The position numbers and the translations under genes are program-made. Positions 11,357 to 31,126 of a stretch of 32,877 nt of DNA are shown here, in pieces. The DNA is from Rhodococcus sp. (in: high G+C Gram-positive bacteria) (GTDB lineage Bacteria; Actinomycetota; Actinomycetes; Mycobacteriales; Mycobacteriaceae): NCBI GenBank assembly GCA_004211695.1, contig SEEV01000044.1:1-32877 (forward strand), in the 5' to 3' direction. The number at the start of each line of letters is the position of its first letter. Positions within the stretch are counted from its first letter, which is position 1. The notes under the pieces are model-generated. The model saw only the letters and a program-made list of their open reading frames with translations, was not told where the DNA came from and made no database searches.

Positions 11357-11602
11357 ATGCTCACCCCGACGGTCCTGCGCGACGACGACGGCTGGGTCGA
11401 CTACAGCTACATCAACCATCTCGTCGTCAACGGCGGCGTCATCGCGTGGGGCTTCGACGCCCCCCACGATTCCCTCGCCCGCGACATCCTGTCGAGTGTC
11501 TACCCCGGCCGCCGCGTCGTCACGGTGGATGCGCGGCAGATCTTCGCCGGGGGCGGCGGCATCCACTGCATCACCCAGCACCAGCCGCGCGGGCGGATCT
11601 AG
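11357..11602 (+). pseudogene. Agmatine deiminase/peptidylarginine deiminase family, C-terminal remnant
   Basis: About 80 codons match the end of bacterial agmatine deiminase-type enzymes. YSYINHLVVNGGVIAWGF corresponds to the N-(F/Y)-(L/Y)-(V/I)-VNGGVI segment. FPGR-type and VDARQIFAGGGGIHCITQ correspond to the final block with the catalytic cysteine. The stop at 11600-11602 is in the usual place. Roughly the first 250-270 codons, with the other catalytic residues, are absent, so no activity is expected. The cut end faces the cut end of the mce relic about 36 bp away. The tail overlaps the 3' end of the sigma factor gene by 32 bp. Confidence 0.85.
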
Positions 11603-17651: not shown

Positions 17652-18964
17652 AGCCCGGCAAGGGGATCGACGAGCCGGTCGACCCGTACCTCCCCCAGAA
17701 CGGCAACCGCGGATACCGGGTGTCGCGGTACGACCTCGAACTCTCGTACAAGGTCCACAGCAACCGGTTGGCCGGCAAGGCCACCATCACCGCGGTGACC
17801 ACCGAGGTACGGTCCCGGTTCGCCCTGGACCTGGCATCCAACCTGCACGTGACGAAGGTCGCGGCCAACGGTTCCCGCAACACGAAGTGGCTGCACCGGA
17901 ACGGCAAGCTGATCATCACGCCCGCCCAGAAGATCCCGGCGGGTGGCGCCCTGGTGCTCACCGTTCAATACGGGGGTTCCCCGAAACCGATCCGGAGTAT
18001 GTGGGGCGAGGTCGGCTGGGAGGAACTGTCGGAGGGAGCGCTCGTCGCGAACCAGCCCAACGGGGCGGCGTCCTGGTTTCCCTGCGACGACCATCCGAGT
18101 TCGAAGGCCAGTTACCGCATCGCGATCACCACCGATTCGCCGTATTTCACCGTCGCCAACGGGGCGCTGGTCGGCAAGCAGACCCGGGCCAGCCAGACGA
18201 CGTGGGTCTACGAGCAGACCGAGCCGATGCCGAGTTACCTGGCCACCATCCAGATCGGACCGTACGAACGCCGCAGCTTCGCATCGGGGAGTGTTCCGAT
18301 GTTCGCCGTCCACCCGCCGCGACTGCGTGCGTCGTTCGACGTGGACTTCGGCCGGCAGCCTCAGATGATGGACGTGTTCGGCCGGTTGTTCGGCCCCTAC
18401 CCGTTCGCCGACTACACGGTGGTCGTGACCGACGACGAGTTGGAGATCCCGCTCGAGGCGCAGGGACTGTCGATCTTCGGCGCCAACCATTGCACCGGGC
18501 GGCGCTGGTCCGAACGACTGGTGGCGCACGAACTCGCCCACCAGTGGTTCGGCAACAGCCTGACGCTCGGCCAGTGGCGGGACATCTGGCTGCATGAGGG
18601 ATTCGCCTGTTACGCGGAGTGGATCTGGTCGGAGAACTCCGGTGGGCCGTCGGCTCACCGGCTCGCGGTCCAGGCGCATCAGGGGCTGTCCCGGAAACCG
18701 CAGGATCTGGTGATCGCCGATCCGGGACCGCAGTTGATGTTCGACGACCGCGTCTACAAGCGGGGCGCTCTCACACTCCACGCATTACGACGCCGGCTCG
18801 GCGACGACAAGTTCTTCGCGTTGCTGCGGCAGTGGACTCTGGCCCATCGCCACTCCACGGTCACGACTGAGCAGTTCACCGACCTGGCAACCCATTACAC
18901 CGACGAGTCACTGCGCAGGCTGTGGGATTCCTGGCTCGGGGAGAAGACGCTGCCACCGATGTGA
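17648..18964 (+). CDS. M1-family zinc metallopeptidase coupled to the NRPS
   Basis: A 438-aa M1-type aminopeptidase. The zinc site is HELAHQWFGN (H294, E295, H298) with the third ligand E317 in WLHEGFACY, giving HEXXH-x18-E. A probable transition-state Tyr is in FDDRVYKRGA. The usual substrate-anchoring GAMEN is replaced by EAQG (about 270-273). It is compact: it has the N-terminal beta domain and catalytic domain but not the long C-terminal helical domain of PepN. No signal peptide is visible. The GTG at 17648 overlaps the NRPS stop in GTGA, so the two are made together. In Streptomyces poly-lysine producers, zinc aminopeptidases degrade the polymer, so a trimming or self-protection role is inferred. 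The tail overlaps the MFS gene by 70 bp. Confidence 0.92.
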   Translation: MKPGKGIDEPVDPYLPQNGNRGYRVSRYDLELSYKVHSNRLAGKATITAVTTEVRSRFALDLASNLHVTKVAANGSRNTKWLHRNGKLIITPAQKIPAGGALVLTVQYGGSPKPIRSMWGEVGWEELSEGALVANQPNGAASWFPCDDHPSSKASYRIAITTDSPYFTVANGALVGKQTRASQTTWVYEQTEPMPSYLATIQIGPYERRSFASGSVPMFAVHPPRLRASFDVDFGRQPQMMDVFGRLFGPYPFADYTVVVTDDELEIPLEAQGLSIFGANHCTGRRWSERLVAHELAHQWFGNSLTLGQWRDIWLHEGFACYAEWIWSENSGGPSAHRLAVQAHQGLSRKPQDLVIADPGPQLMFDDRVYKRGALTLHALRRRLGDDKFFALLRQWTLAHRHSTVTTEQFTDLATHYTDESLRRLWDSWLGEKTLPPM

Positions 18965-20226
18965 TCTGCCGTCACCTCCGAGGTCGGGAGGTGCGACCGC
19001 CACTTGGTGAGTGCGAGCGCGAGGCATCCCGCGACCGCGACCGCGCCGAAGACGAACATCCTCGGGTACGTCACCGCCGGAAACGTCTCGGACAGGTATG
19101 CCATCACGACGGGCGTCCCGAATCCCAGATACGTCAGCGAGTAGAAGACCGCGGTGAGTCCGGCGAGGTCTTCCGGTCCCGCGATCCGCTGGATCTCCTG
19201 CAGTCCCGACACCATGGCCATGCCGTATCCGCAGCCGAGCACGACGGCGGCGACGAGTGCGAGCGGAACGGTCAGCGCGGACGCGGCGACGACGGCCGCG
19301 ACCATTCCTGCGAGGACGAAGACGAGCGACACCACGACGGCGCGCGCGTTGCGGGGCGTGTCGATCTTGCGACCGAGCGCCTGGATGGCGAAGCCCGCCC
19401 CGAGGCCGACCATGCACATGAGCGCGGAGAACGCGAGCGGCAGCCCACCGGTGTTCCGGGACATCAGCGACGGGAGCACCGCGTAGGCGGCGGCCGCCGT
19501 ACCGAACACCCATGGCGCGAGCGGAGCGATCACGAAGAGAAACCGCTTGTGGGAGGCGGACGGGATCGCGAGGTCGCGGACGAGGGAGACTCGTTCGGAC
19601 ACTGGCTGGGCCGCGCGGGTCTCGGGGGCCCGCCACAGCGCGACGGCGGCACCGACGGCGATCGCGCTGTGCACGGCGTAAGACAGGACGCTCGGCAGCG
19701 GCGCCCACTGGGCGAGGACACCGGCGACGCCCGCGCCGAGACCGAATCCGCCGGTCAGGCTCATCGCGGCCCGACGTGCGCCGGCGCCGGCGGCGGGATC
19801 CCACGGCGCGGTCGACAGTTCCTTCACCCAGCTGCCGCCCACTGCCATGCCGAGCCCGAGCGCGACGCCGCACAGGATGCGTCCCACGATCAGCAGGGCC
19901 GCCGAGTCGGAGCCGAACGCGAGCAGCATCGACCCGACGATCGTCAGAACGGGGGCGGGCAGCAGGATCGGACGCCGCCCGAGCCGGTCGGACAGCGGGC
20001 CGCCGAGCAGCAGTGCGGGGACGATCCCCAGCACGTACGCGAAGAGGAACAGGTCGACGGTCACCGCTGAGAAGCCGTGATCCGTGCGGTACATCCCGAG
20101 CAGCGGAGTGAATTCGTTGCCGCCCCACGCCACCGCGAACATCGTCGCGGCCACCAGCATCCAGTGCCGTGGCGACGACACCGGCTCGACGGCAGTGTCC
20201 GCGGGGTTGTCCCGGACGACGGTCAT
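18895..20226 (-). CDS. MFS transporter, 12-TM type, coupled to a GntR regulator
   Basis: A 443-aa major facilitator with about 12 TM helices. The motif-A loop GGPLSDRLGRRPILLP follows TM2, and a motif-A-like loop (ALGRKIDTPRNAR) follows TM8. It begins with WMLVAATMFAVAWGGNEFTPLLGMYR. The ATG at 20226 overlaps the GntR stop (ATGA), so it is translationally coupled. Being last in the minus-strand set downstream of the GGT-like, RidA and oxidase genes, it most likely imports that pathway's substrate, though export cannot be excluded. The substrate is unknown. Its 3' end overlaps the M1 peptidase gene on the other strand. Confidence 0.9.
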   Translation of the reverse strand: MTVVRDNPADTAVEPVSSPRHWMLVAATMFAVAWGGNEFTPLLGMYRTDHGFSAVTVDLFLFAYVLGIVPALLLGGPLSDRLGRRPILLPAPVLTIVGSMLLAFGSDSAALLIVGRILCGVALGLGMAVGGSWVKELSTAPWDPAAGAGARRAAMSLTGGFGLGAGVAGVLAQWAPLPSVLSYAVHSAIAVGAAVALWRAPETRAAQPVSERVSLVRDLAIPSASHKRFLFVIAPLAPWVFGTAAAAYAVLPSLMSRNTGGLPLAFSALMCMVGLGAGFAIQALGRKIDTPRNARAVVVSLVFVLAGMVAAVVAASALTVPLALVAAVVLGCGYGMAMVSGLQEIQRIAGPEDLAGLTAVFYSLTYLGFGTPVVMAYLSETFPAVTYPRMFVFGAVAVAGCLALALTKWRSHLPTSEVTADHIGGSVFSPSQESHSLRSDSSV

Positions 20227-20876
20227 CGCGCGACTCCTCTCGGATTGAGTGCGTGGACCTGGCGCATGTGGACGAGCACCGCGGCGTCGAACCCGGCGGC
20301 GTCACCCGCTTCGACGAGTTCGGTCAAGTTCTCGTGGTCGGCGATGATCCGGGGCAATTGGCCCGGATCGCGGGTGATCGAGTGGGCCGTCATCCGGCGC
20401 TGCCGTTCACGGATGCTGGAGTAGAACGTCGCGAGCAGCGGGTTCTCCCCGGCCTCGACGATCATCCGATGGAAGTCGGCATCCGCGGCGCTGAACGCGG
20501 CGACGTCGCCTCGCTCGGCGATCTCCCGTTGTTCCACGAGGTTCTCGCGGAGGCGCGCGACGAGCAGTTCCCGGGTGCGGGGCTGGTCAGCGAGCAGCCG
20601 GACGCTGTGCGTCTCGACGAGTTGCCGGGCGTCGACCACGTGTTCCGCCTCGCCGTCCGCGACGGGCACGATCAGGGCGCCGCGCTTCGGGTACAGCCGC
20701 ATCCAGCCCTCGGCCTCGAGGCGGAGGAAGGCTTCGCGCACGGGGGTGCGGCTCAGGCCCATCCGTCCGGCGATCTCGCCCTCGCTGATCAGTTCACCGC
20801 CGGGCAGACCGCCCGACAGGATGAGCTCCTTGACCTCGCGATAGGCCTGCTCCGCGGCGGAATACAACATAGACAC
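20223..20876 (-). CDS. GntR-family regulator, FadR subfamily (FCD domain)
   Basis: A 217-aa regulator. The winged helix covers about residues 10-75: AYREVKELILSGGLPGG, then ISEGEIAGRMGLSRTPVREA, FLRLEAEGW and the wing. The C-terminal all-helical FCD domain contains DADFHRMIVEAGENPLL and a final DHENLTELVEAGDAAGFDAA. FCD ligands are usually small organic acids bound through a metal held by Asp and His residues, several of which are visible. The start is GTG 20876 or ATG 20870; both sit inside an inverted repeat. It shares a transcript with the MFS gene and probably represses itself and the neighbouring operon until a pathway acid accumulates. Confidence 0.92.
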   Translation of the reverse strand: MSMLYSAAEQAYREVKELILSGGLPGGELISEGEIAGRMGLSRTPVREAFLRLEAEGWMRLYPKRGALIVPVADGEAEHVVDARQLVETHSVRLLADQPRTRELLVARLRENLVEQREIAERGDVAAFSAADADFHRMIVEAGENPLLATFYSSIRERQRRMTAHSITRDPGQLPRIIADHENLTELVEAGDAAGFDAAVLVHMRQVHALNPRGVAR

Positions 20877-20890
20877 AAGATGTATTTATA
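20862..20890 (-). promoter_or_regulatory. Promoter and inverted repeat at the GntR start
   Basis: On the minus strand TATAAA (20890-20885) lies eight bases before the GTG, with no ribosome site, suggesting a leaderless transcript. ATACA (20885-20881) and TGTAT (20866-20862) form a 24-bp inverted repeat over the start codon, a likely autoregulatory operator. It gives the gntR-MFS pair a promoter of its own within the larger set. Confidence 0.5.
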
Positions 20891-20911
20891 CCCGCGTGCC
20901 CGGTGCCGGGT

Positions 20912-21352
20912 CTACGGAGATACCGCCACTGTGAGCTCTATCTCCACGGGCGCACCGGACGGCAGGGCGTACACGCCGATCGCACTGCGCACCGGCAGAG
21001 CCTCGGGTCCCAGGCTCTCGACCAGCGCGTCGGACGCGCCGTCGGCCACCGCGGACAGCTCGTGGAAGTCCCGGGTACACGCGATGAAGACGCTCATGCG
21101 CAGGCACCGGGAGATGGCCGCCGTGCCGCCGACGGCCGCGGCGATGGCGGCGATCGCATTTCTCGCCGCCAACCCTGCGGCCTCCCGGACCTCTGGGACG
21201 TCCAGGTCCCTTCCGACGATGCCGGTGACGGTCAGTTCACCGTCGCGGCGTGGTGTCATCCCGGCGCTGTAGGCGATTCCGCCGTGCACGACGGCGGGAA
21301 TGTAGCGGCCCTGGGGTCGCGGGCCAGCGGCGACGGATTCCTGTTCAGACAC
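20912..21352 (-). CDS. RidA/YjgF-family protein (enamine/imine deaminase)
   Basis: A 146-aa RidA-fold protein. The signature region includes HGGIAYSAGMTPRRDGEL, the helix VREAAGLAARNAIAAI, the arginine in LPVRSAIGVYALP that holds a substrate carboxylate in RidA, and the final EIELTVAV. RidA proteins trim in the cytosol and hydrolyse reactive 2-aminoacrylate and other enamines or imines to carbonyl and ammonia; pathway-specific versions also exist. The GTG at 21352 overlaps the end of the GGT-like gene by 8 bp and has AGGAAGGA upstream. In this operon it probably hydrolyses an imine made by the oxidase. Confidence 0.92.
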   Translation of the reverse strand: MSEQESVAAGPRPQGRYIPAVVHGGIAYSAGMTPRRDGELTVTGIVGRDLDVPEVREAAGLAARNAIAAIAAAVGGTAAISRCLRMSVFIACTRDFHELSAVADGASDALVESLGPEALPVRSAIGVYALPSGAPVEIELTVAVSP

Positions 21353-22937
21353 CGAGCGCGATTCCTTCCTGGCGAGGGTCCGCGGCGCCGGACAGCAGAC
21401 CGCGCCCGGGGTCGACGGAGATGATCTGAGCGCTTCCGCCCGCGGCCCACGGCCCCTGCAGTGTGACGTCGTGTCCGAGGGCCCGGAGTTCACTGCGCAC
21501 TTCTTCGGGCACTCGCGACTCGCACCGCAGTTCCGCCGGGCGACCGACCACATCGGCGTCGCTTCCGGGAAAGACCGTGAAACGTGGCGCCGCGACGGCC
21601 TCCGCCGGGTCGAGTCCGTGGTCGAGCAGGTGCGAGATCAGCTGCATGTTCCACTGCACCTGGCCGTCGCCGCCCGGGGTGTTGCCGACATGCAGGAGGT
21701 TCCCGGACGTATCGGTGATCACCCACGCGTTGAGGGTGTGCAGCGGTTTGCGGCGGGGCGCCGCCGAGTTGGGATGTCCCGGGATCAGGTAGGCCCCGCG
21801 GCCGTATCGGTTGTTCAGCACCACTCCGGTGCCGGGGACGGTCGTCTTCGCGCCGAACGTGAAGGCGAGCGAGTGGATGAAACTGACGGCACGGCCTTCG
21901 GAGTCCACCGCGACCGTCGAGGTGGTGTCGCCGGCGGTCACGCTGAAGGCCCCTGACGACGCCCGGTGGCCGTCCAGCCGGGCTCTCGCCGCCCCGACCG
22001 CTGCGGGCTCCAGCACCGCCTTCCACCCGTCGTCGCCGGCGCCGCAGGTCGCGAGCCGGTCCTCGAAGGCGAGTCGCGCGGCCCGCGCCATGCGATCGAC
22101 GGCCGGGGCGGTGAGCCACGGCGAGAAGCCCACCACGCCGTCGCACAGCGCCGCCTGTTGGAGCACCATCCATCCGGGTGTGGGCAGCGGAGTCTGGTGG
22201 ATGACCGCGCCGGCGTAGTGCCCGCTGATCGCAGCCTCCGCCCGCACGCCGGCGCCGGCCGCCCACTCCTCCCCGCTGAACGGTGCCCCGCCGGCGCGCA
22301 GCGCTTCGACGGACTGCTGCGCGAAGGAGCCGGTGTAGAAGCCGTGGATATCGCGCGCGAGCGCACGGATCGATCGGGCCAGGTCGCGCTGCGGCAGCAG
22401 CTCACCGACCTGCGGCAACCGGCCGTCGGGGAGATACACCGCACGCAGGCCGGGGTCGTCTGCGATCGCGGTCTGCGCTTCTCGCACGTCCTCGCGGGTT
22501 TTCGCCGAGCAGGGCAGCCCCTTCTCCGCCGCGCGCACCGCAGGCGCCCAGAGATCGTCCAGCGAGCGGGTCGCGCCACCGGCGTGCAGGGCGCCGAGGG
22601 CGGCCGGGGCTCCGGGAACGGCCACCGCCAATGCCCCGTCGAGAGGAATCGACCGCAACCCGCGTTCGGTGTAGAACTCCACGTCGCCGCCGTCGGGACC
22701 GAAGCCGCTGCCCCCGACCGTCCACACCGATCCGTCCGGTTCGCGGACGACGGCGAACGCGTCGCCGCCGATCCCGCACTGTCCCGGCAACGTCAACCAG
22801 GTCATCGCGGCCATGGCCAGCGACGCGTCGATCGCGTTGCCTCCGTCGGCCAGCACGCGCGCACCTACCGTGCTCGCCGCGGGATGACTGGACGAGACCA
22901 TGCCGTCGGCGGAGAGAGTGGACGGTCGCGGGTTCAC
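21345..22937 (-). CDS. Gamma-glutamyltransferase-family Ntn hydrolase
   Basis: A 530-aa GGT superfamily proenzyme. The large-subunit part has SSSHPAASTVGARVLADGGN, GIGGDAFAVV and GFYTGSFAQQ. The predicted self-cleavage site precedes GDTTSTVAVD, giving the nucleophile T338. The small-subunit part has LNNRYGRGAYLIPGHPN and the glycine pair in VGNTPGGDGQVQWN. Canonical GGTs have TTH-x-SV at the nucleophile; here it is TTSTVAV, and no signal peptide is seen, so this is a cytoplasmic relative that may cleave a gamma-glutamyl or other N-acyl bond. The GTG at 22937 overlaps the Rieske gene stop (GTGA). Amide cleavage fits the operon's apparent amine-degrading role. Confidence 0.9.
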   Translation of the reverse strand: MNPRPSTLSADGMVSSSHPAASTVGARVLADGGNAIDASLAMAAMTWLTLPGQCGIGGDAFAVVREPDGSVWTVGGSGFGPDGGDVEFYTERGLRSIPLDGALAVAVPGAPAALGALHAGGATRSLDDLWAPAVRAAEKGLPCSAKTREDVREAQTAIADDPGLRAVYLPDGRLPQVGELLPQRDLARSIRALARDIHGFYTGSFAQQSVEALRAGGAPFSGEEWAAGAGVRAEAAISGHYAGAVIHQTPLPTPGWMVLQQAALCDGVVGFSPWLTAPAVDRMARAARLAFEDRLATCGAGDDGWKAVLEPAAVGAARARLDGHRASSGAFSVTAGDTTSTVAVDSEGRAVSFIHSLAFTFGAKTTVPGTGVVLNNRYGRGAYLIPGHPNSAAPRRKPLHTLNAWVITDTSGNLLHVGNTPGGDGQVQWNMQLISHLLDHGLDPAEAVAAPRFTVFPGSDADVVGRPAELRCESRVPEEVRSELRALGHDVTLQGPWAAGGSAQIISVDPGRGLLSGAADPRQEGIALGV

Positions 22938-23296
22938 TTCATGCACCCCCGCGCGGCCCGCCGACGCGGGATGGAACTGGTGTCGTCGGGGTCGATACCG
23001 ACGTAGATCTCGCCGTCCCGTTCCTCCACCGGATACGTCTTGATCGCCACCGTCGCCGGCGGGCACACGGGTTCGCCGGTCTCCAGGTCGAATACGCTGC
23101 CGTGGCAGGAGCATCCGATGCCGTCGTCGACGAGTTTCCCCGAAGACAACAGGCAGTCCAGGTGCGTGCAGTAGTTCGACGTGGCGTAGGCCTTCCCGTT
23201 CAGACGCGCCACGGCGAACTCGTGTTCGCCGGCGAAGAAGCGGCGCACGATGCCTTCGGAAACCTGTCCGGAGCGCGCAACGCGAGTGAATTCCAT
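22934..23296 (-). CDS. Rieske [2Fe-2S] ferredoxin
   Basis: A 120-aa Rieske-type ferredoxin. The cluster ligands are visible in NYCTHLDC (Cys-x-His) and, 16 residues on, CSCH (Cys-x2-His), followed by GSVFDLETGEPVCPPA and a terminal strand TYPVEERDGEIYVGI. The C-terminal extension is Arg-rich (PRRRAARG). It passes electrons from the operon's ferredoxin reductase to an oxygenase, here most simply the di-metal oxidase. The ATG at 23296 has AGGGAGAA upstream. It lies 29 bp after the aldehyde dehydrogenase and overlaps the GGT-like gene by 4 bp. Confidence 0.95.
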   Translation of the reverse strand: MEFTRVARSGQVSEGIVRRFFAGEHEFAVARLNGKAYATSNYCTHLDCLLSSGKLVDDGIGCSCHGSVFDLETGEPVCPPATVAIKTYPVEERDGEIYVGIDPDDTSSIPRRRAARGCMK

Positions 23297-23325
23297 GGTC
23301 TTCTCCCTCTGTCGACAGGTACGTC

Positions 23326-24768
23326 TCAGGCCGAAGGGCTGAGGTAGACGGTCTTTTCGGATTGATAGAACTGCATCATCGAGTCCCCCGCCTGTTCCTT
23401 GTGGGTCTGTGTGCTCGATGACTTGTAACCGCCGAAGGGCGCGTTCATGCTCATGCCCGTGGTGGGCTGGTTGATCTTCACCAGACCCGATTCGGACCGG
23501 CCGGCGAACGCGAGGGCCCTTGTTACGTCGTTGGTGACGATTCCGGCACTGAGTCCGAATTCCGTGTCGTTCGCCAGCGCGACCGCCTCCTCGAAGCCGG
23601 ACGCCCGCAGGAAGACCAGCAGCGGGCCGAACACTTCTTCGGTGACCACGCGCATGTCCGGCCTGCCGCCGGCGAACACGGTCGGGACGGCGAAATAGCC
23701 GTTCCCCTCGTCGAGACTCACTCCACCACAGACCAGTTCGGCGCCTTCGTCGCGACCGATCTGCACGTACTCGAGGAACTTGGCGAGTTGCCCCGCACTC
23801 GCCAGCGCGCCCATGCCCACACCAGGGTCCGCGCCCGGGCCGACGCCGATCCCTTCGGCGAGCTCCACCACGCGGTCCAGCAACCGGTCGTGGATCTCGT
23901 CCACCGCGATCACCCGGCTGGTGCCCGTGCACGCCTGCCCGGACAACCCGAACGCGCCCTTGACGATCAGCGCCGCCGCCTTGTCCACGTCGGCGTCGTC
24001 GAGCACCACGACAGGGTTCTTCCCCCCCATCTCGAGCTGACTGCGGCGAGACGGTCCGACCGCCGCGTGGATAGCGCGACCCACCTCGGTGGAACCGGTG
24101 AACGTGACGGCATCGATGCGCTCGTCCGCCGCGACTGCCGCTCCGGCCCGCCCGGAACCCTGAACCAGGGCGATAACCCCGGCCGGAAGCCCACCTGCGA
24201 GCAACGCCTCGACGAGACGCTGACCCATCAGCGGTGTGAGTTCGGACGGCTTGAACACCACGACATTTCCCGCCGCGAGCGCAGGTCCGAGTTTGCGTGA
24301 GGGAATGTTGAGCGGAAAGTTCCACGGGGTGATCGCTCCGACGATGCCGACGGGTTCACGCAGGGTGATGACGAGTCCGTCACCCGGGGTGGGATAGGTG
24401 CTGCCGGTGGTGCGAAGCGCATCACCGGCGTAGAAGCGCAGGTTCATCGGGGTACGACCGACTTCCATGGTGGCCTCGGCGCGGGTCTTGCCCTCTTCTC
24501 GGACGAGTTCGTCGACGAGTTCGCCTGCCCGCGCCTCGAGGTGCGCGGCCGCGGCCTCGAGGATTGCGGCGCGGCGCTCGGGGGGTGTCGCTGCCCACTG
24601 CGGCGCCGCCTTGGCCAGCGCGCTCACGGCGGCATCCACGTCCGCTGCGGTCGAATCAGGGAACACACCGATCACGTCGTCGTGGTCGGCGGGGTTGCGT
24701 CGCTCGAACGTCGCCCCGGACGACGACGGGACCCACTGCCCGTCGACGAGATTGAGTCCTTCGATCAT
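23326..24768 (-). CDS. NAD(P)-dependent aldehyde dehydrogenase
   Basis: A 480-aa enzyme of the aldehyde dehydrogenase superfamily, full length. Catalytic residues are N150 (ITPWNFPLN), K173 (VFKPSELTP), E246 (LEMGGKNP) and the nucleophile C280 (GQACTGTSRV). Cofactor segment FTGSTEVGR is present. It would oxidise an aldehyde to an acid; the operon implies an aldehyde released from an imine or by oxidative cleavage. It resembles the semialdehyde and benzaldehyde-type branch, but substrate cannot be set by eye. The ATG at 24768 overlaps the ferredoxin reductase stop (ATGA). Confidence 0.95.
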   Translation of the reverse strand: MIEGLNLVDGQWVPSSSGATFERRNPADHDDVIGVFPDSTAADVDAAVSALAKAAPQWAATPPERRAAILEAAAAHLEARAGELVDELVREEGKTRAEATMEVGRTPMNLRFYAGDALRTTGSTYPTPGDGLVITLREPVGIVGAITPWNFPLNIPSRKLGPALAAGNVVVFKPSELTPLMGQRLVEALLAGGLPAGVIALVQGSGRAGAAVAADERIDAVTFTGSTEVGRAIHAAVGPSRRSQLEMGGKNPVVVLDDADVDKAAALIVKGAFGLSGQACTGTSRVIAVDEIHDRLLDRVVELAEGIGVGPGADPGVGMGALASAGQLAKFLEYVQIGRDEGAELVCGGVSLDEGNGYFAVPTVFAGGRPDMRVVTEEVFGPLLVFLRASGFEEAVALANDTEFGLSAGIVTNDVTRALAFAGRSESGLVKINQPTTGMSMNAPFGGYKSSSTQTHKEQAGDSMMQFYQSEKTVYLSPSA

Positions 24769-26006
24769 GACACCGTCACCAGTTCCTCGTCGTCTTCATC
24801 CATCAGGTCGAACAGGTCGACGTCCTCGTCCGCGAGCCGCGACGGCTCGATCGACCGTCCGATCAGTTCCCTTGCCGCACTGATCTCTTCACCGCGGTCG
24901 AGCGCGAAGGCGCCGCGCACCACCCCGCCGTCCAGGTAGAAGGCGGTGAACTCGCCGTTGTCGGCGCTGCCGCGGAACACCAGATCGGTGTAGCGGGCGG
25001 TGCCGGCGAACTGCAGGTTCTTACCGAACTGATCCGACCAGAACCAGTGGGCGGGGTCCACGACACCGACGCGTCCCAGCATCAGATTCGCGGTCGCCGC
25101 TCCCTGTTTGCTCGAGTTGTCGAAGTGTTCGACGCGCACGTGTCTTCCGGCCGCGTGGGAGAAACGTGCTGCCACGTCGCCGGCGGCGTACACGTGCGGA
25201 ACCGACGTCCGGCCCTGTGCGTCCACGAGAATTCCGCCGTCGACTGCCAGTCCGGAGGCCTGCGCGACCTCGACGTTGGGGACGATCCCGATTCCCACCA
25301 CCACGACGTCGGCCGGAACCACTTCTCCGCCTTCCAGTGTGATCAGTACGTCTTCTGGTCGCGTCGTCACGGTGTCGACTCGCACACCGCCGCGGACGCT
25401 GACTCCGTTGTCCCGCTGCAATCGAGTGCAGACCTCGCCCATCTCGGGTCCGAGGATACGAGCGAGCGGGACCGGGTCCGCTTCGAGAACCGTGACCTCC
25501 GCTCCCAGGGTTCGTGCGGTGGCGGCGATTTCGAGCCCGACGAATCCTCCGCCGATCAGCACCAGCCGCGCGCCGGGGCGGAGTTGGTCGGCCAGCCGCT
25601 CGGCGTCGTCGATCGTTCTCAGGTAGTGCACCCGTTCGGGCGCCGAACCGGTCACCGGCATCGTCCGCGGCCGCCCGCCCGTCGCGAAGAGCACGGCATC
25701 GGCCGAGATTCGCCGTCCGTCGGACAATTCCACCGCCCCGGTCTGCGAGTCGATCCGGGTCACTGCGGTTCCGGTGAGGAGTTCGACGTCCTGCTTCTCG
25801 CGCCATGCGTCGGGAAGGAGCATCAAGGATTCTAGGTCCTCCTGCCCGGCAAGGAATTCCTTGGACAGAGGTGGGCGCTGATACGGCGCATGCGGTTCGT
25901 CGCCGACGAGCAGAATCCTGCCGTCGAATCCTCGGCGCCGCAGGGTGCGTGCGGCAACGGCGGCGGTCTGGCCGGCACCGACGGTGACGATGGTGTTCAG
26001 CGTCAT
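24765..26006 (-). CDS. NAD(P)H-dependent ferredoxin reductase (FAD)
   Basis: A 413-aa class of reductase like BphA4/ThcD. The FAD site is at the start (TVGAGQTAAVAARTLRRRG). PYQRPPLSKEFL is the family signature. The NAD(P)H site is LVLIGGGFVGLEIAATARTL followed by an acidic EAD, which favours NADH. VYAAGDVAARF is the second FAD contact. The C-terminus has an unusually acidic tail (DEDVDLFDLMDEDDEE). It reduces the Rieske ferredoxin from NADH. The ATG at 26006 is 14 bp after the 48-aa gene. The in-frame ORF extending upstream is an overlap with other genes and is not used. Confidence 0.94.
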   Translation of the reverse strand: MTLNTIVTVGAGQTAAVAARTLRRRGFDGRILLVGDEPHAPYQRPPLSKEFLAGQEDLESLMLLPDAWREKQDVELLTGTAVTRIDSQTGAVELSDGRRISADAVLFATGGRPRTMPVTGSAPERVHYLRTIDDAERLADQLRPGARLVLIGGGFVGLEIAATARTLGAEVTVLEADPVPLARILGPEMGEVCTRLQRDNGVSVRGGVRVDTVTTRPEDVLITLEGGEVVPADVVVVGIGIVPNVEVAQASGLAVDGGILVDAQGRTSVPHVYAAGDVAARFSHAAGRHVRVEHFDNSSKQGAATANLMLGRVGVVDPAHWFWSDQFGKNLQFAGTARYTDLVFRGSADNGEFTAFYLDGGVVRGAFALDRGEEISAARELIGRSIEPSRLADEDVDLFDLMDEDDEELVTVS

Positions 26007-26020
26007 GGTGTCACTCGCTC

Positions 26021-26167
26021 TCAGTCGACTTCGGCGGGCGAGGCCGCGGTCTCGGCGTAATCGGGGCTGCGGGTGAGATCCACGTAGACGACGTCGTCCT
26101 CGACCTTCACCGCGTAGGTCGGCTGGCACAGGTCCTGGTCTTCCTCGTAGCCGGTGTCGAGGTCCAT
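26021..26167 (-). CDS. 48-aa acidic protein resembling the C-terminal end of a Rieske ferredoxin
   Basis: A 48-residue protein with ATG 26167 and a good AGGAGAG ribosome site. It is acidic and has one Cys. The core, PTYAVKVEDDVVYVDL, looks like the last beta strands of Rieske/NirD-type ferredoxins (compare TYPVEERDGEIYVGI in this operon's Rieske protein), and DLDTG matches the preceding DLETG. The cluster-binding half is absent. It may be a shrunken relic, or a small partner that adds a strand to the oxidase or ferredoxin. It sits directly between the oxidase gene and the ferredoxin reductase gene. Confidence 0.75.
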   Translation of the reverse strand: MDLDTGYEEDQDLCQPTYAVKVEDDVVYVDLTRSPDYAETAASPAEVD

Positions 26168-26200
26168 CGTTCTCTCCTGTCGGGCGAGATGCCTGCGCCT

Positions 26201-26228
26201 GGAGGGGCCCGATCGTCCGGGCCCCTCC
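26201..26228 (-). terminator. Perfect 11-bp hairpin between the oxidase and the 48-aa gene
   Basis: GGAGGGGCCCG (26201-26211) and CGGGCCCCTCC (26218-26228) pair perfectly across a 6-base loop, 10 bp after the oxidase stop. No T tract follows. As it lies inside an apparent operon, it may be a partial terminator or a stabilising 3' end that raises oxidase mRNA above the downstream genes. Confidence 0.7.
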
Positions 26229-26238
26229 ATTCGCACGG

Positions 26239-26958
26239 TCAGGCGGTCGCGAGCTCGAGGTCGGGTGCCACGTAGGTGTCGTAGAGCCCCTTCGTGTACG
26301 AGAAGCGCATCTCGGCTCCCCACTGCACGAGCTGCAGGCAGCGCTGCTGCAGCTGCGGCGTGTCCGCATGGTCGAGCACGATCTGGTATCCGCGCTCACC
26401 GTGCACGACGTCGGACGTGATGTGCAGGTCGAAGAACTCGATCTCGTCCTCGGTGAACCCGTACACCTCACGCAGCGGGATGATCTGCTTCTTGTAGATG
26501 CTCGGAACCTGCGATTCGAGTCCGACGACGAGCGCCGCGGTGGCGACGACGAAGTGCTCGCGCTGCGACACCGCGTAGCACCAGGACTGCAGACCGCGGG
26601 TGATCGCGCTCATGTTCGAGGGATCCTCGACGCGCTCCTTCGTGGTGCCGCACGCCTCGGCGAACTTGATGAGGAGGTCGGTGTGCCGGATGTCGGCCAG
26701 CTCCTCCTCGTACATGTTCTGGAGGGTGAAATCCTTTGCATTGGTGAAGGTGTCGGGAGTGTTCGAGTAGATGTTCGCCAGGTAGTCGGCGAAGGGGCCG
26801 ACGTAGTGGTAGTGGTTCTCCGCCCAGCGTGCGAAGTGGTGCTTCTCGAGCTTGCCCTCGGCCCACGCCTTGCTGAACGACGCGTTCTTCGCCTCGCGGC
26901 CCTTGATGGCGTTCTCCAGGGCTGTGCGGAATTCGTCCCGGCCTAGAAGTTCGGTCAT
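26239..26958 (-). CDS. CADD-like heme-oxygenase-fold di-metal oxidase (HDO family)
   Basis: A 239-aa all-helical protein of the TenA/PqqC/CADD superfamily. The metal ligands of Chlamydia CADD (E81, H88, E142, H174, D178, H181) are matched in order and spacing by E85, H92 (EEELADIRH), E148 (VGLESQ), H179, D183 and H186 (DLHITSDVVHGE). So a di-iron or Fe/Mn oxygen-activating centre is likely, unlike TenA or PqqC, which lack this set. Family members do N-oxygenation, oxidative C-C or C-N cleavage, desaturation or pABA formation. The nearby Rieske ferredoxin and reductase could supply its electrons. The ATG at 26958 has GAGG upstream. The gene is preceded by the GlcG-like gene (152 bp gap) and followed by a strong hairpin. 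Substrate unknown. Confidence 0.88.
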   Translation of the reverse strand: MTELLGRDEFRTALENAIKGREAKNASFSKAWAEGKLEKHHFARWAENHYHYVGPFADYLANIYSNTPDTFTNAKDFTLQNMYEEELADIRHTDLLIKFAEACGTTKERVEDPSNMSAITRGLQSWCYAVSQREHFVVATAALVVGLESQVPSIYKKQIIPLREVYGFTEDEIEFFDLHITSDVVHGERGYQIVLDHADTPQLQQRCLQLVQWGAEMRFSYTKGLYDTYVAPDLELATA

Positions 26959-27079
26959 GATGTGCCTCGTCTTCCTCGAGAATGGGAATGGATGGGGATG
27001 CTCCGACTGGAGTGAATTCGACGGTATCGACTCGCGGTCGACGCGACCACGTTCGAAATGACTGTGTTCCAACGGTTTC

Positions 27080-27102
27080 GATGTGCACAGTGTCGGCACA
27101 TC
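27080..27102 (-). other. Inverted repeat GATGTGC-N9-GCACATC after the GlcG-like gene
   Basis: Perfect 7-bp arms lie 8 bp beyond the GlcG-like stop in the 152-bp gap before the oxidase gene. It could be a weak terminator or processing hairpin, or an operator for a separate oxidase promoter. The remainder of the gap shows nothing else recognisable. Confidence 0.45.
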
Positions 27103-27110
27103 GCGGGCGA

Positions 27111-27557
27111 TCAGCTGCGCACTACGGTGAGTGCGTCGAACTCGGCCAGCATTGCCGCTCCGACCGCCTTGTCCTGCTTGCCGTTTCCGCCACTGATACC
27201 CATGCCCCCGACGATCTGGCCGTCGAAGACGAGGGGAAACCCGCCCACGAAGACCGCGAATTTGCCCGGCAGCATCTGGCTGATCCCGAAGGCTTCGTTC
27301 CCGGGCAGCGCGGGTCCGTCGGGCGCCTCGTTGAACAGGTGGGTGGCCCGCTCGTGGCCGGCCGCGGTGAACGCCTTGGCGATCGCGATGTCGACGCCGG
27401 TGAGGCGCGCTCCCGGCAGTCGGTGCAGGGCCAGCACGTTGCCGCCGTCGTCGCAGACACACAGGGTCTGCTTGACGCCGATTTCCTCGGCCTTCGCGCG
27501 TCCCGCGGCGAGCAGTGGGAGCGCGTCGTCGAGGGTGATTCGGTGAACCTGATGCAT
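27111..27557 (-). CDS. GlcG/HbpS-family protein
   Basis: A 148-aa protein of the GlcG/HbpS (DUF336) family. The family segments are CVCDDGGNVLALHRLPGA, IAIAKAFTAAGHERAT, PGKFAVFVGGFPLVFDGQIV and the terminal GGMGISGGNGKQD. HbpS in Streptomyces is an extracellular heme-binding sensor, but this copy has no signal peptide, like the many short GlcG proteins found in catabolic operons, whose role is unresolved. The ATG at 27557 has GGAGAAG upstream. It is the first gene of the minus-strand operon and is divergent from the PucR-type regulator. Confidence 0.93.
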   Translation of the reverse strand: MHQVHRITLDDALPLLAAGRAKAEEIGVKQTLCVCDDGGNVLALHRLPGARLTGVDIAIAKAFTAAGHERATHLFNEAPDGPALPGNEAFGISQMLPGKFAVFVGGFPLVFDGQIVGGMGISGGNGKQDKAVGAAMLAEFDALTVVRS

Positions 27558-27625
27558 TGTCTTCTCCGTTGCGTTGCGGGAGGAAGTGATGCACCGATTT
27601 CTATCACCGGCATCGCCGGCGGAAC

Positions 27626-27638
27626 ATAGTCACACTAT
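27626..27638. promoter_or_regulatory. Palindrome ATAGT-CAC-ACTAT in the divergent promoter region
   Basis: This perfect 5-3-5 inverted repeat lies in the 178-bp, relatively A/T-rich gap between the operon (start 27557) and the PucR-type gene (start 27736). CATAGTGCATA nearby (27665-27675) repeats part of it. It is a candidate binding site for the PucR- or GntR-type regulator. Precise -35/-10 elements are not clear to me. Confidence 0.45.
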
Positions 27639-27735
27639 CCGAAAAAATCTCCAAAACCAGGGCATAGTGCATAGGCAATGCAGCCGAGCGCTCCGCCATA
27701 CTGCACTTTCGACGTCACCCGAGGAGGGGCTCGTA

Positions 27736-29427
27736 GTGGAAGACACCACGACACCGAACGCGGAGGACGAACGATTGTCGTTACGCGGCCTGCTGGAAGA
27801 ACCCCTGCTCGCGTCGGCGCGCCTGCTGTCGGGCACGGATGCCCTGACCGGACCGGTGACGTGGTGCCTGCCGTGGGGCGAGGTGATGAGCCGCCCCGAC
27901 TCCCTCACCGAGGTCGCCGTGTACACCCGGCCCGAAACCCTGTCCGCGCACGGACGTGAACTCGAGTCGCTGGTGGCGCGGGGTGCCGGAGTTCTCCTCG
28001 TCGACGGGTCGGCTCCCGCGGGCACGGTCTGGCCGACCGGACTCACCGTGGTGGAACTGGGCTTTCCGGTCGGTTTCACCGCTCTCAACCGGCTCCTCGC
28101 CGAGCGCGCGCTCACCCAGGAAGCGCACGTGATGCGGTACGCACTCACCGTCCATCAGTCGCTCGCCGGGCTACTGCACCGGGGCGCGGGTCTGCCGATG
28201 CTGATTCGCGAGGTCGCGGCTCTGACCTCGGATGTCGCCGTCGCCCTGGACGTGCGGGGACGGCTTCTCGCCCACGCCGGTCTACCGGACGCCGAGGCGG
28301 CGGGAACGGTTGCGCTGCTGGACGCCCTCGCGGACGCCCTGCCGCGGCTCGAGGAATCACCACCGGCACGGATGCACAACGTTCACGTGATCCGCCTGGA
28401 ATCTCCGGACGGACTGTTCGCACCCACGACCGCGGTCGCCGGGGCCATGCAACTGGCGGGCCGGTACGAGGGCTGGGTGGTGGTCGTCGTGTCCGGGGCG
28501 AATCCACGCCGGCACGACATCGCGCAGCACCGGGTGGTCGTCGAGCAGGCGGGGACGATCATCGGAACCGAGATGCTCCGGCAGCGCAGCGTGGACGAGG
28601 CCGAGGAGCGGGCGCGCGGCGATTTCGTGCAGGCCCTGGTGCACGGCAACTTCGCCAACGACCACGATCTGCGCACACGGGCCGCTCTGCACGAGATCGA
28701 TCTGGACCTGCACTACATCGTCTTCGTCGCGCCCGGTCTCGTCGACCGGGCGGCGGGACGGCCCGGCGCGAGCATGGTGCGGCTCGCGCGGTACGCCGCC
28801 GGTGTGTTGCCCCGACCTGACGTCCGTTCGCACGTCACCGTCATCGGAGACGTGCTCGTGGTGATCCGCTCCCTGAGTTCCGCCGACGCCCCGGCGGTCG
28901 AATCGGAAATCAGCGAGTACGCGCACGCCATGTCGCTCGATCTGGAAACCCGGTTGGGTCAGCGGATTCCGGTGGCCCACGGCCGTCCCGCGGCAGGTGC
29001 GCGCGATATCGGGGAGAGTTACCGCGAGGCCCGCATCACCCTGGGCATCGCCCAGCGGCTCGGGTTGTCCGGTTCGGTGGCCTACAACGACCTGCGCGGA
29101 TTCAGTGTGCTCGCCCGCGCGACCGACACCGACGAGAGTCGACGGCTCATCCGCGACGTCCTCGGTCCCCTCCGGGCGTCGGGTTCGCACGCCGACACCG
29201 AGGAGTTGCTCTTCGCCTATCTCGAAGAGGGCGGCAACATCAATGCGGCCGCGCGGCGCCTGCGGATTCACCGGAACACCATGATCGCCAAGCTCGATCG
29301 CACGTCACGGCTCATCGGCATGGACATCCGGGAACCCGAGAACCAGTTCACCCTGTGGCTGGCACTGCGGCTCGATCTACTGTCGCAGGTGCAGGACACC
29401 GTCAACCACGAGATCGTGACCCGATAG
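27736..29427 (+). CDS. PucR-family transcriptional regulator (CdaR-like)
   Basis: A 563-aa regulator. The N-terminal PucR-type sensor region covers about 1-140 (LLEEPLLASARLLSGTDALT, then VAVYTRPETLSAHG). A middle GAF/GGDEF-like region follows. The C-terminal PucR helix-turn-helix reads TEELLFAYLEEGGNINAAAR then RLRIHRNTMIAKLDR, and ends FTLWLALRLDLL. The GTG at 27736 is preceded by GAGGAGG; the ORF extends further upstream, but that part lies in the promoter region. PucR/CdaR regulators usually activate adjacent catabolic operons (purine, allantoin, glycerate, amines) in response to substrate. Divergent position makes it the probable activator of the oxidase operon. Confidence 0.92.
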   Translation: MEDTTTPNAEDERLSLRGLLEEPLLASARLLSGTDALTGPVTWCLPWGEVMSRPDSLTEVAVYTRPETLSAHGRELESLVARGAGVLLVDGSAPAGTVWPTGLTVVELGFPVGFTALNRLLAERALTQEAHVMRYALTVHQSLAGLLHRGAGLPMLIREVAALTSDVAVALDVRGRLLAHAGLPDAEAAGTVALLDALADALPRLEESPPARMHNVHVIRLESPDGLFAPTTAVAGAMQLAGRYEGWVVVVVSGANPRRHDIAQHRVVVEQAGTIIGTEMLRQRSVDEAEERARGDFVQALVHGNFANDHDLRTRAALHEIDLDLHYIVFVAPGLVDRAAGRPGASMVRLARYAAGVLPRPDVRSHVTVIGDVLVVIRSLSSADAPAVESEISEYAHAMSLDLETRLGQRIPVAHGRPAAGARDIGESYREARITLGIAQRLGLSGSVAYNDLRGFSVLARATDTDESRRLIRDVLGPLRASGSHADTEELLFAYLEEGGNINAAARRLRIHRNTMIAKLDRTSRLIGMDIREPENQFTLWLALRLDLLSQVQDTVNHEIVTR

Positions 29428-29430
29428 CTC

Positions 29431-30813
29431 TCAGGCGGCCACCGGGTCTTCACCGACGAATGTCCCGGCCAATCCGGCCAGCGCGACGACGGCAGCCACC
29501 GCGAACAGCAGTCCGTACGGATCGGCCGCCAGGTGCGCCGCCACGCCCACCCAGGCGGCGCCGACGGCCGAGCCGCCGAACCGGATCAGGTTGAACAGTC
29601 CCAGACCCGTTCCCACCGCCCCCGCGGGCGATCGAGTCGAACCGGCCGCCGCGGGCGTCTGGACCATCCCGATTCCCACTCCGGCCACCACGAGCACCGC
29701 GCCGACGGCGAACGGATTCCGGGCGCCGTAGGACAGCGTGATCGCCAGTGCCACTTGACTACCGATCAGGACGGCAAGACCGGAACGCATCACCACACGG
29801 GCCCCGATCCTGTCGACGAGACGCCCGACGACGGGCGCCACGCAGGTCATGACGACCGGCAGCACGAACAGCATCAACCCGGCCTGCGTCGTCGAACTGC
29901 CTGAGCCGGTCAGGTAGAGCGGCAGCGCCAGCAGTACCGCTCCGAGAGCGAACATCTGGGTGAACGCGGCGAGCGCACTCCGCAGGAACCTCGACTCGAT
30001 CACGAGGTCGATGGGCACGAAGGGATTCGAAGTCCGCCGGCAATGGAGGACGAACCCGGCCGTGACGACGACACCGCCGCCGAGCGTGGCGACTCTGGCC
30101 CACACCGGAATCTGGTCCTGCGAGACGGTGGTGATGCCGAGAATCAGCAGCACCGCCCCGAGCGTGATGGCCGACGCCCCGATCACGTCGAGTCGCATCT
30201 TCTTGCCGGGGTACCGCGGGATGTAGCGGAGTGTCGCGGCAAATCCGATCAGGGCCACCGGGACGAGTGGCACGAACGCCCACCGCCAGCCCCACCAGTC
30301 GCTGACGATTCCGCCCATGGACGGCCCCACTGCCTGACCGATCCCGTTCACCGCCGCCCAGGCGCCGACGGCGCGCGCCCGTCGCGCAGGCCCGAACAGC
30401 CACGCGATCAGTCCCATGACGGCCGGCGCGAACGCGGCCGCGGCGATTCCCCCGAGCGACCGCCAGAGCACGAGCACCGGCAGCGACGGCGCGAGTGCCG
30501 CGCCGAGCGAACAGACCGCGGTGCCGAGCAACGCCGCGCAGTAGACGCGCCGGCGACCGAACCGATCACCGATCCAGCCGGCCAGCGGCATCGTCGCCGC
30601 GAAGGTCAGGAGAAATCCGACGACGACGAGGATCCCGCTCCCGAGGCCGGCGTCGAAGTCCGTGAGGATCGCGTTCAACGGGACGTTGACGATGTTGTTG
30701 CTCACGGTGCCGACGAAGGTTCCGGCCAGCAGCGCCGCCAGCGCGGGCGACGTGCCGGGTCCGCGTTCTTCACCGGTTGGTGCAATCCGAGCCTGACCGA
30801 TCGCCGTGTTCAT
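29431..30813 (-). CDS. MFS exporter (EmrB/DHA2-like), probably iron-regulated
   Basis: A 460-aa major facilitator with about 14 predicted TM helices. Motif A is GWIGDRFGRRRVYCAAL. Antiporter motif-C-like AAVNGIGQAVGPSMGG is in TM5, followed by GWRWAFVPLVPVAL. The C-terminal half has PVVGRLVDRIGARVVM. The ATG at 30813 has only a weak ribosome site. A DtxR/IdeR-type iron box lies about 80-100 bp upstream, so expression should rise when iron is scarce. Such control suits a siderophore exporter, although no siderophore synthesis gene is in the window. Its stop is 3 bp from the convergent PucR-type gene's stop. Confidence 0.9.
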   Translation of the reverse strand: MNTAIGQARIAPTGEERGPGTSPALAALLAGTFVGTVSNNIVNVPLNAILTDFDAGLGSGILVVVGFLLTFAATMPLAGWIGDRFGRRRVYCAALLGTAVCSLGAALAPSLPVLVLWRSLGGIAAAAFAPAVMGLIAWLFGPARRARAVGAWAAVNGIGQAVGPSMGGIVSDWWGWRWAFVPLVPVALIGFAATLRYIPRYPGKKMRLDVIGASAITLGAVLLILGITTVSQDQIPVWARVATLGGGVVVTAGFVLHCRRTSNPFVPIDLVIESRFLRSALAAFTQMFALGAVLLALPLYLTGSGSSTTQAGLMLFVLPVVMTCVAPVVGRLVDRIGARVVMRSGLAVLIGSQVALAITLSYGARNPFAVGAVLVVAGVGIGMVQTPAAAGSTRSPAGAVGTGLGLFNLIRFGGSAVGAAWVGVAAHLAADPYGLLFAVAAVVALAGLAGTFVGEDPVAA

Positions 30814-30893
30814 AGAGTCCGCTTTCGTCCGAGAATTCGTGTTCCGGCGATGCCAGTTCCCGCCGCGAACCTATGCCGCACCCGCCAAATTAC

Positions 30894-30912
30894 TTTGGTT
30901 AGGCAAACCTGA
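30894..30912 (-). promoter_or_regulatory. DtxR/IdeR iron box
   Basis: TTTGGTTAGGCAAACCTGA matches the consensus TTAGGTTAGGCTAACCTAA at 16 of 19 positions, with the core GGTTAGGC and AACCT intact. Iron-loaded DtxR/IdeR binds such boxes to repress iron-acquisition genes. It is 81 bp from the MFS start and 215 bp from the permease start, so the MFS gene is the more likely target. Confidence 0.8.
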
Positions 30913-31084
30913 TTATGAACGCAAGATTCCGAGAAATGACTTCCGTCGAGCATTCCTTTACTTGTGCGTGACAACAAGCAATCCTGGCGAAAAATGCCGG
31001 GCACAATGCACAAATACGCTGGTTATCGATGTGCACTCTGGACGTTGACCCTGGAAAATGCCCCGCGCACTATCACTGCACTGT

Positions 31085-31101
31085 GACTAGTGCCACTAGT
31101 C
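31085..31101 (+). promoter_or_regulatory. Palindrome GACTAGT-GCC-ACTAGTC, candidate operator
   Basis: A perfect 7-3-7 inverted repeat lies just upstream of a possible -10 element (TACCTAT, about 31104-31110) and 26 bp before the permease GTG. CTAG is rare in many bacterial genomes, so two copies in one dyad stand out. It probably binds a dimeric repressor encoded elsewhere. Confidence 0.6.
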
Positions 31102-31126
31102 TGTACCTATTTCGAAGGGGCGCACC

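Follow-up and report, generated by a model that had tools for sequence, protein, structure and literature searches.

We analysed a 32,877-nucleotide stretch of Rhodococcus sp. DNA (hereafter the window), which encodes a heme-oxygenase-like dimetal oxidase (HDO) clustered with a ferredoxin reductase, Rieske-type ferredoxins, an aldehyde dehydrogenase (ALDH), a protein of the gamma-glutamyltransferase (GGT) fold and a RidA-family protein. On balance, and judging from sequence comparison, this HDO probably acts as terminal oxygenase in a multicomponent system of its own, which would serve the catabolism of a nitrogen-containing organic acid. The window is contig C435 of an 8.47-Mb assembly (G000) in 1043 contigs that is 74% complete, and its HDO is 100% identical to the ortholog of Rhodococcus jostii NBRC 16295 (L027). 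On the minus strand, the transcription order is HbpS/GlcG-like protein, HDO, the remnant of a first Rieske gene (Rieske1), reductase, ALDH, a second Rieske ferredoxin (Rieske2), GGT-fold protein, RidA, a GntR/FCD regulator and a major facilitator superfamily (MFS) transporter. A PucR-type regulator is divergent, and farther out lie a second MFS gene and a 531-aa membrane protein. For comparison, GTDB genomes were scanned with an alignment of ten orthologs, which returned 253 relatives, and the best 80 were kept. In these 80 loci, all from Actinomycetota by title, the HDO is 80-100% identical to that of the window; the loci are kin rather than independent samples, and counts over all 80 include misses caused by short contigs. 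The features are as follows, with counts over the kept loci.

26239-26958, minus strand: HDO, 239 aa, predicted metal ligands E85, H92, E148, H179, D183 and H186 (Pfam Haem_oxygenas_2, PF14518, E 4e-34).
26021-26167, minus strand: Rieske1 remnant, 48 aa, CxH...CxxH ligands gone (from DNA alignment to R. jostii NBRC 16295).
24765-26006, minus strand: BphA4/HcaD-type ferredoxin reductase, 413 aa (PF07992, PF14759; in 79/80 loci).
23326-24768, minus strand: ALDH (PF00171, E 2e-148; in 74/80 loci).
22934-23296, minus strand: Rieske2 [2Fe-2S] ferredoxin, 120 aa, intact (PF00355, E 7e-18; in 74/80 loci).
21345-22901, minus strand: putative GGT-fold amide hydrolase (PF01019, E 1e-86; in 67/80 loci).
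20912-21352, minus strand: RidA-family protein (PF01042, E 1e-12; in 68/80 loci).
27111-27557, minus strand: HbpS/GlcG-like protein (PF03928, E 2e-31; in 70/80 loci).
27574-29427, plus strand: PucR-type regulator, divergent (PF13556, E 2e-17; in 73/80 loci).
29431-30813, minus strand: MFS transporter, member of the conserved unit (PF07690, E 2e-50; in 70/80 loci).
31127-32722, plus strand: 531-aa transporter with a predicted ion transporter (IT) superfamily fold, member of the conserved unit (no Pfam or NCBIfam match; in 72/80 loci).
20223-20876, minus strand: GntR/FCD regulator, neighbour (in 4/80 loci, those of R. jostii, R. wratislaviensis, R. opacus and R. koreensis only).
18895-20226, minus strand: MFS transporter, neighbour (in the same four of 80 loci).

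Conservation of these genes was assessed in the 63 loci whose flanks span the full 10 kb. All 63 have Rieske1, the reductase and Rieske2, so that reductase and ferredoxin genes are kept with the oxygenase, as expected of a multicomponent system, in 63/63. The IT-fold transporter, PucR and ALDH genes were present in 62/63, the HbpS-like and RidA genes in 61/63, and the GGT-fold and MFS (29431-30813) genes in 58/63. The lowest identities were 47% for Rieske1 and the reductase, 49% for the transporter, 56% for the GGT-fold protein and 60% for Rieske2. HDO, Rieske1 and reductase genes were contiguous, in that order, in 79 of the 80 loci; only L070, whose contig of 3.3 kb gave no reductase match, departs from this. 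Fifteen gene-order signatures were seen among the full-flank loci, or 11 once those differing only by missing genes had been merged by eye. The set stays together through rearrangement and, on this comparison, is a real, widely conserved gene cluster. An earlier note on this DNA, made from the sequence alone, had named separation of the HDO gene from the Rieske, reductase, ALDH and GGT-like genes as grounds against its reading; we found these genes kept together. All the other components that it listed are present as well (RidA, HbpS/GlcG-like, GntR/FCD, MFS and the divergent PucR-type regulator). As to membership of the unit, its assignment of the Rieske, reductase, ALDH, GGT, RidA, GlcG-like and PucR genes stood. 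The GntR/FCD and MFS (18895-20226) genes fell outside it in most Actinomycetota loci, being found in 4/63 full-flank loci, and the unit reaches past the range first drawn, through 29431-32722, taking in the other MFS gene and the IT-fold transporter. The statement that most genes overlap by 1-8 bp did not survive: overlaps occur at three of nine junctions (4, 8 and 4 bp), and the rest are gaps of 14-152 bp with the start codons chosen here.

The conserved ferredoxins could in principle have another client, with the HDO using general cellular reductants and the Rieske and reductase genes serving an oxygenase encoded elsewhere. Two ferredoxins per cluster do seem more than one oxygenase needs, yet we consider this arrangement unlikely. 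HDO, Rieske1 and reductase genes remain contiguous despite rearrangement, and neither an oxygenase gene nor a large Rieske oxygenase alpha subunit was found among the scanned non-set families recurring in at least 5 of the 80 loci (a rough gene picker was used, and cluster 28 and families in fewer than five loci lay outside the scan). Since none of the scanned recurring families is an oxygenase, we saw no other enzyme among them that the ferredoxins might serve. The recurring families comprised DUF1275, sulfatase with its FGE, ribosomal proteins, amidase, SBF-like and DctM-like transporters, LysR and TerC, together with two (clusters 17 and 27) without a Pfam match. The DUF1275 membrane proteins (for example L038:11833-12618 and L073:9070-9891) recur by the cluster in two groups, of 24 and 12 loci. 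A further point against another client is that in Burkholderiales ferredoxins of a different type take the place of the Rieske proteins.

This exchange of redox partners came to light in plasmid and chromid records. A megablast search of plasmids with the cluster DNA as query returned nothing, and tblastn with the HDO gave seven records: four from Cupriavidus, two from Caballeronia and one from Azospirillum. The Azospirillum record is a 24% match annotated as PqqC. The HDO encoded on chromids of Cupriavidus and plasmids of Caballeronia is 66-71% identical to that of the window, and an ALDH (46%), an HbpS-like protein (53-59%) and the transporter (46-49%) are kept with it. Electrons would be supplied there by a pair of plant-type [2Fe-2S] ferredoxins and a 2Fe-2S/FAD/NAD reductase, which replace the Rieske/BphA4 set. 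These clusters also hold an ornithine-cyclodeaminase-family protein and a GntR regulator, and that of Caballeronia an alpha/beta hydrolase. Two loci, L124 (HDO 75% identical) and L026 (63%), have one plant-type ferredoxin and one Rieske ferredoxin together with HDO and RidA genes; L124 also carries GGT-like, cyclodeaminase-like, HbpS-like, ALDH and GntR genes. That one conserved oxidase has different, unrelated electron-supply proteins encoded beside it is, in our view, the strongest sign of the HDO needing them. The GntR regulator of the Burkholderiales, L026 and L124 clusters is a distant one (26-33% identity), and a GntR-type regulator can evidently belong to such clusters. Beside the plant-type ferredoxins (L107:9403-9720 and L109:12078-12428), we observed a protein of 106-116 aa without a Pfam or NCBIfam match, possibly a coupling or effector protein. 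A gene near the clusters of L026 and L124 reads like a peptide-type ABC substrate-binding protein.

The oxidase was assigned by aligned ligands and by predicted fold. In a sequence alignment E85, H92, E148, H179, D183 and H186 line up with the residues that we take to be the metal ligands of CADD, and all six are invariant in alignments of 11 and of 23 orthologs, in agreement with the earlier note. The best AlphaFold2 (AF2) model had a pLDDT of 87.1 (38-80 for the other four models). Its closest structure in the PDB is CADD (Z 25.2, root-mean-square deviation 1.9 A over 212 residues, 24% identity), followed by PqqC (Z 24.3), UndA (Z 22.8) and HrmI (Z 22.2). By its set of three His and three carboxylate ligands and by predicted fold, the protein is a heme-oxygenase-like dimetal oxidase. 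A further PF14518 HDO-like gene, distinct from that of the cluster, lies elsewhere in the same genome (G000:C796:9984-10514, E 2e-53).

With CADD as its closest fold, and with matches to the NCBIfam models of CADD-type para-aminobenzoic acid (pABA) synthase (TIGR04305, 95.6 bits against a cut-off of 200) and of PqqC (TIGR02111, 46 bits against 240), the HDO might be thought a biosynthetic enzyme of one of these kinds in a cluster for cofactor synthesis. We hold this to be highly improbable. Excerpts of PMC11965152 describe CADD Tyr27 as the self-sacrificed residue and Lys152 as the amino donor in pABA synthesis; the corresponding residues of the HDO are Ser29 and Gln158, invariant in 11 orthologs. 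These replacements, with the sub-cut-off TIGR04305 score, ruled out a CADD-type pABA synthase. The recurring families of the 80 loci included no recognisable folate or pyrroloquinoline quinone (PQQ) gene. PqqC was rejected on its TIGR02111 score and on the setting of distant HDO-fold genes: in four such loci with wider flanks, radical-SAM neighbours (4/4) and PqqB-like neighbours (2/4) were recognised by eye, and BLAST did not find the cluster set, apart from matches in L133, namely a Rieske-like gene about 1.4 kb away (38% identical to Rieske2) and a short MFS match.

Co-occurrence across genomes, which the earlier note had proposed as a check, agreed with the locus comparison. Among 298 genomes of the order, the window's included, HDO orthologs (64-100% identity) were found in 10 and GGT-fold orthologs (at least 59%) in nine, and all nine are among the 10; one genome thus had the HDO without the GGT-fold gene and none the reverse (Fisher p 2e-16, which ignores kinship). 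This count leaves out a 34% GGT-like match in G275. In the tenth genome, G143, the HDO lies on a 4.6-kb contig, and in G128 the GGT-fold gene is on a different contig from the HDO. Four of the kept loci, L040, L093, L096 and L102, come from genomes of this sample (G222, G237, G188 and G128, respectively). Nine further genomes of the 298 gave HDO matches of only 18-25% identity; the four distant loci with radical-SAM neighbours are of this kind. Wider draws gave close HDO orthologs in one (G328) of 395 further genomes from the phylum and in four of 393 from the class, of which two had been found before. Seven distant matches from the phylum draw had none of the cluster set within their short flanks. 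In another locus (L127:7844-9228), a distant CADD-like gene, 28% identical to the HDO, is directly followed by a gene that reads like a succinate dehydrogenase iron-sulfur protein.

Genes for the NADH-to-Rieske chain described in the earlier note are present in the window; a second Rieske gene, next to the HDO, had been overlooked, and 48 codons of it are left. This Rieske1 gene lies between HDO and reductase, and alignment with L027 revealed a 210-bp in-frame loss just past the start codon, within 26021-26239 of the window. In L027 the intact gene encodes a 118-aa ferredoxin (PF00355, E 1e-14), and in all 80 kept loci Rieske1 directly follows the HDO with its CxH...CxxH motif intact. The window's genome, 74% complete, has the remnant and some more distant Rieske proteins, and no intact Rieske1 was found elsewhere in it. 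The loss may be an assembly or amplification artefact, to which we give somewhat less than even weight: the fragmented, incomplete assembly and the intact gene in 80/80 kept relatives favour an artefact, and the preserved start codon and frame at the junction, with no flanking repeat noticed in the window-L027 alignment, favour a real deletion. In the window's copy of the system, the HDO may rely on Rieske2 or be impaired. The reductase scored 367 bits against the NCBIfam HcaD model, below the cut-off of 450.

Cues to the substrate come from the remaining conserved proteins. T326 of the GGT-fold protein aligns with the catalytic Thr of E. coli GGT, presumably residue 391, and is Thr in 70/70 sequences. 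At the gamma-glutamyl-binding positions, which we take to be R114, N411, Q430, D433 and S462/S463 of the E. coli enzyme, it has S65, A346, R365, R368 and H388/T389; the two arginines do not vary in 70 sequences. It scored 219 bits against TIGR00066 (cut-off 358). Gamma-glutamyl specificity was disfavoured because the residues that bind this group are replaced; here the earlier note, which had suggested an N-acyl or gamma-glutamyl amine, was not supported as to the gamma-glutamyl substrate. The ALDH is nearest to 2,5-dioxovalerate/alpha-ketoglutaric semialdehyde dehydrogenase models, below cut-off (NF052305, 512 bits against 750). RidA matches Pfam Ribonuc_L-PSP (48.4 bits, cut-off 27.3) and is by family a putative imine/enamine hydrolase.

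The 531-aa transporter was modelled with AF2 (pLDDT 79) and has a predicted IT-superfamily fold. Its best match is MleN (Z 25.4), the comparison structure being a deposited integrative model partly made by deep learning; NaDC3 follows (Z 23.0), with related anion carriers lower. A gene fragment beside the L085 cluster, probably a homolog of this transporter, scored above the DctM cut-off. Some loci (for example L040, L046 and L039) have a second transporter copy at the opposite end of the cluster. An amidase gene (PF01425, L046:17886-19277), whose family is found in 10/80 loci, adjoins such a second copy and is a further hint of amide chemistry. In the open-access literature (subscription journals lay mostly outside the scope), no description of this transporter family was found among the matches listed. 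Taken jointly, the GGT pocket, the transporter fold and the ALDH models would point to a nitrogen-containing organic anion as substrate, with an imine or enamine and an aldehyde en route.

We propose that electrons would pass from NAD(P)H through the flavoprotein reductase to one or both small [2Fe-2S] ferredoxins, which, once reduced, would supply the dimetal site of the HDO for O2 activation. After uptake through the IT-fold carrier, the MFS carrier or both, a nitrogen-containing organic acid would be oxidised by the HDO next to the nitrogen, or opened if it is an N-heterocycle, giving an aldehyde together with an imine/enamine or an amide. The imine would be handled by RidA, or in other lineages by the ornithine-cyclodeaminase-family protein, and the aldehyde would be oxidised by the ALDH. 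An amide would be cleaved by the GGT-fold hydrolase (perhaps by the alpha/beta hydrolase in Caballeronia), its acyl part probably bearing a carboxylate. PucR-type or GntR regulators would switch the cluster on.

Two more specific versions of this route were weighed. In the first, the ring of an N-heterocyclic carboxylic acid would be opened oxidatively to a semialdehyde amide, which the ALDH would oxidise before GGT-fold hydrolysis of a small dicarboxylic monoamide. Such a monoamide is hydrolysed by oxamate amidohydrolase (HpxW), to which we refer by analogy only. The invariant R365 and R368 at gamma-glutamyl-binder positions, the organic-anion transporter fold and the nearest ALDH models all fit, but a ring substrate lacks direct evidence, and we consider this version possible though doubtful. 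The second is essentially the pathway of the earlier note: uptake and hydrolysis of an N-acyl or gamma-glutamyl amine, oxidation next to nitrogen, imine hydrolysis by RidA and oxidation of the aldehyde. A GGT fold, RidA and ALDH are indeed kept with the HDO. The replaced gamma-glutamyl-binding residues and the alpha/beta hydrolase found instead in Caballeronia make it the less likely of the two.

Several observations weigh against a dedicated catabolic system of this kind. The window's own Rieske1 gene, next to the HDO, is broken. No GGT-like or RidA homolog turned up close to the HDO of Cupriavidus or Caballeronia, so the pathway would not be identical everywhere; in the 19.9-kb L124 locus, BLAST gave no homolog of the transporter, of PucR or of a reductase of either type. 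ALDH identity is below 45% in 9/62 full-flank loci and PucR identity in 24/62, so some of these genes are possibly not strict orthologs. According to excerpts of PMC13108848, the HDOs investigated so far do not require a protein effector, and most of them work without a partner protein. Sequence comparison gives the components and their joint conservation, the metal ligands and predicted fold, and the exchange of one ferredoxin and reductase type for another; the electron flow to the HDO is drawn from the gene neighbourhood, the order of reactions is proposed, and the substrate class is drawn from weak cues, namely the transporter fold, two invariant arginines and family roles.

Other genes of the window have no apparent tie to the HDO cluster: a class V aminotransferase (9080-10378, minus strand), a sigma factor with DUF6596 (11571-13499, minus), an M1 peptidase (17612-18964, plus) and a flavin reductase-like protein (7720-8310, plus). 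A large open reading frame (13761-17651, plus) resembles a non-ribosomal peptide synthetase, with AMP-binding, phosphopantetheine-attachment and hexapeptide-repeat domains.

The cluster presents a known kind of enzyme in a setting, probably catabolism, for which no described HDO was found among the literature matches listed. We rate the chances as about even that it represents the first HDO-based catabolic multicomponent oxygenase, served by a reductase and two interchangeable [2Fe-2S] ferredoxins of Rieske or plant type in Actinomycetota and Burkholderiales, and with it an undescribed pathway for a common soil nitrogen-containing acid and an undescribed transporter family. As an operon with its own regulator, in common soil genera with cultured hosts, it offers a genetic handle. 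It makes testable whether ferredoxins can drive an HDO, as they do in other multicomponent monooxygenases, and the switch between Rieske and plant-type ferredoxins, with the oxidase itself conserved, amounts to a natural experiment on the specificity for redox partners.

The HDO superfamily has more than 10,000 members, of which about a dozen are functionally validated, as stated in the excerpts of PMC13108848, which also name MboB as the redox partner of MboA. In the excerpted literature characterised HDOs are mainly biosynthetic; for one HDO domain, DtpC, a link to desiccation tolerance is described. The earlier note's impression that dedicated redox partners of HDOs are nearly undescribed is borne out by the available text of PMC13185094, where MboAB is possibly the first characterised dedicated HDO-redox partner pair. 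MboA/MboB, of mangotoxin biosynthesis, resembles our cluster in pairing an HDO with a co-encoded NADH-dependent redox partner. It differs in having one flavin-Fe2S2 reductase and serving peptide biosynthesis, whereas the cluster encodes a reductase and two separate ferredoxins and is of catabolic type. In the literature scope given above, no report of this cluster, of its substrate or of a catabolic HDO with Rieske partners was found among the matches listed; a paper on riboflavin catabolism (PMC12746152) concerns a Rieske dioxygenase, and the term 'heme oxygenase' is absent from its excerpts.

The families in the cluster are each familiar from other systems. The pABA synthases CADD and NePabS provide the closest solved fold and have the aligned ligand residues in common with the HDO, but their sacrificial Tyr and Lys are absent from it, sequence identity is 24% and the gene setting differs. 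Three-component Rieske dioxygenases of the HcaD/HcaC type use the same reductase and ferredoxin families, with a large Rieske oxygenase subunit that the conserved unit lacks. The GGT family, with gamma-glutamyltransferase and cephalosporin acylase, shares its catalytic Thr with the cluster protein, in which the gamma-glutamyl pocket residues are replaced. In Rhodococcus wratislaviensis AibH1H2 is a catabolic, non-Rieske dinuclear monooxygenase to which a small Rieske protein (AibG) and a flavoprotein (AibF) are assigned as electron chain in the excerpts of PMC10401708 and PMC10811679. AibH2 belongs to the amidohydrolase family PF04909, whereas the oxygenase of the cluster has a predicted heme-oxygenase-like fold. 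Of the systems compared here, AibH1H2 comes closest as a precedent for a non-Rieske dimetal monooxygenase supplied by a Rieske protein.

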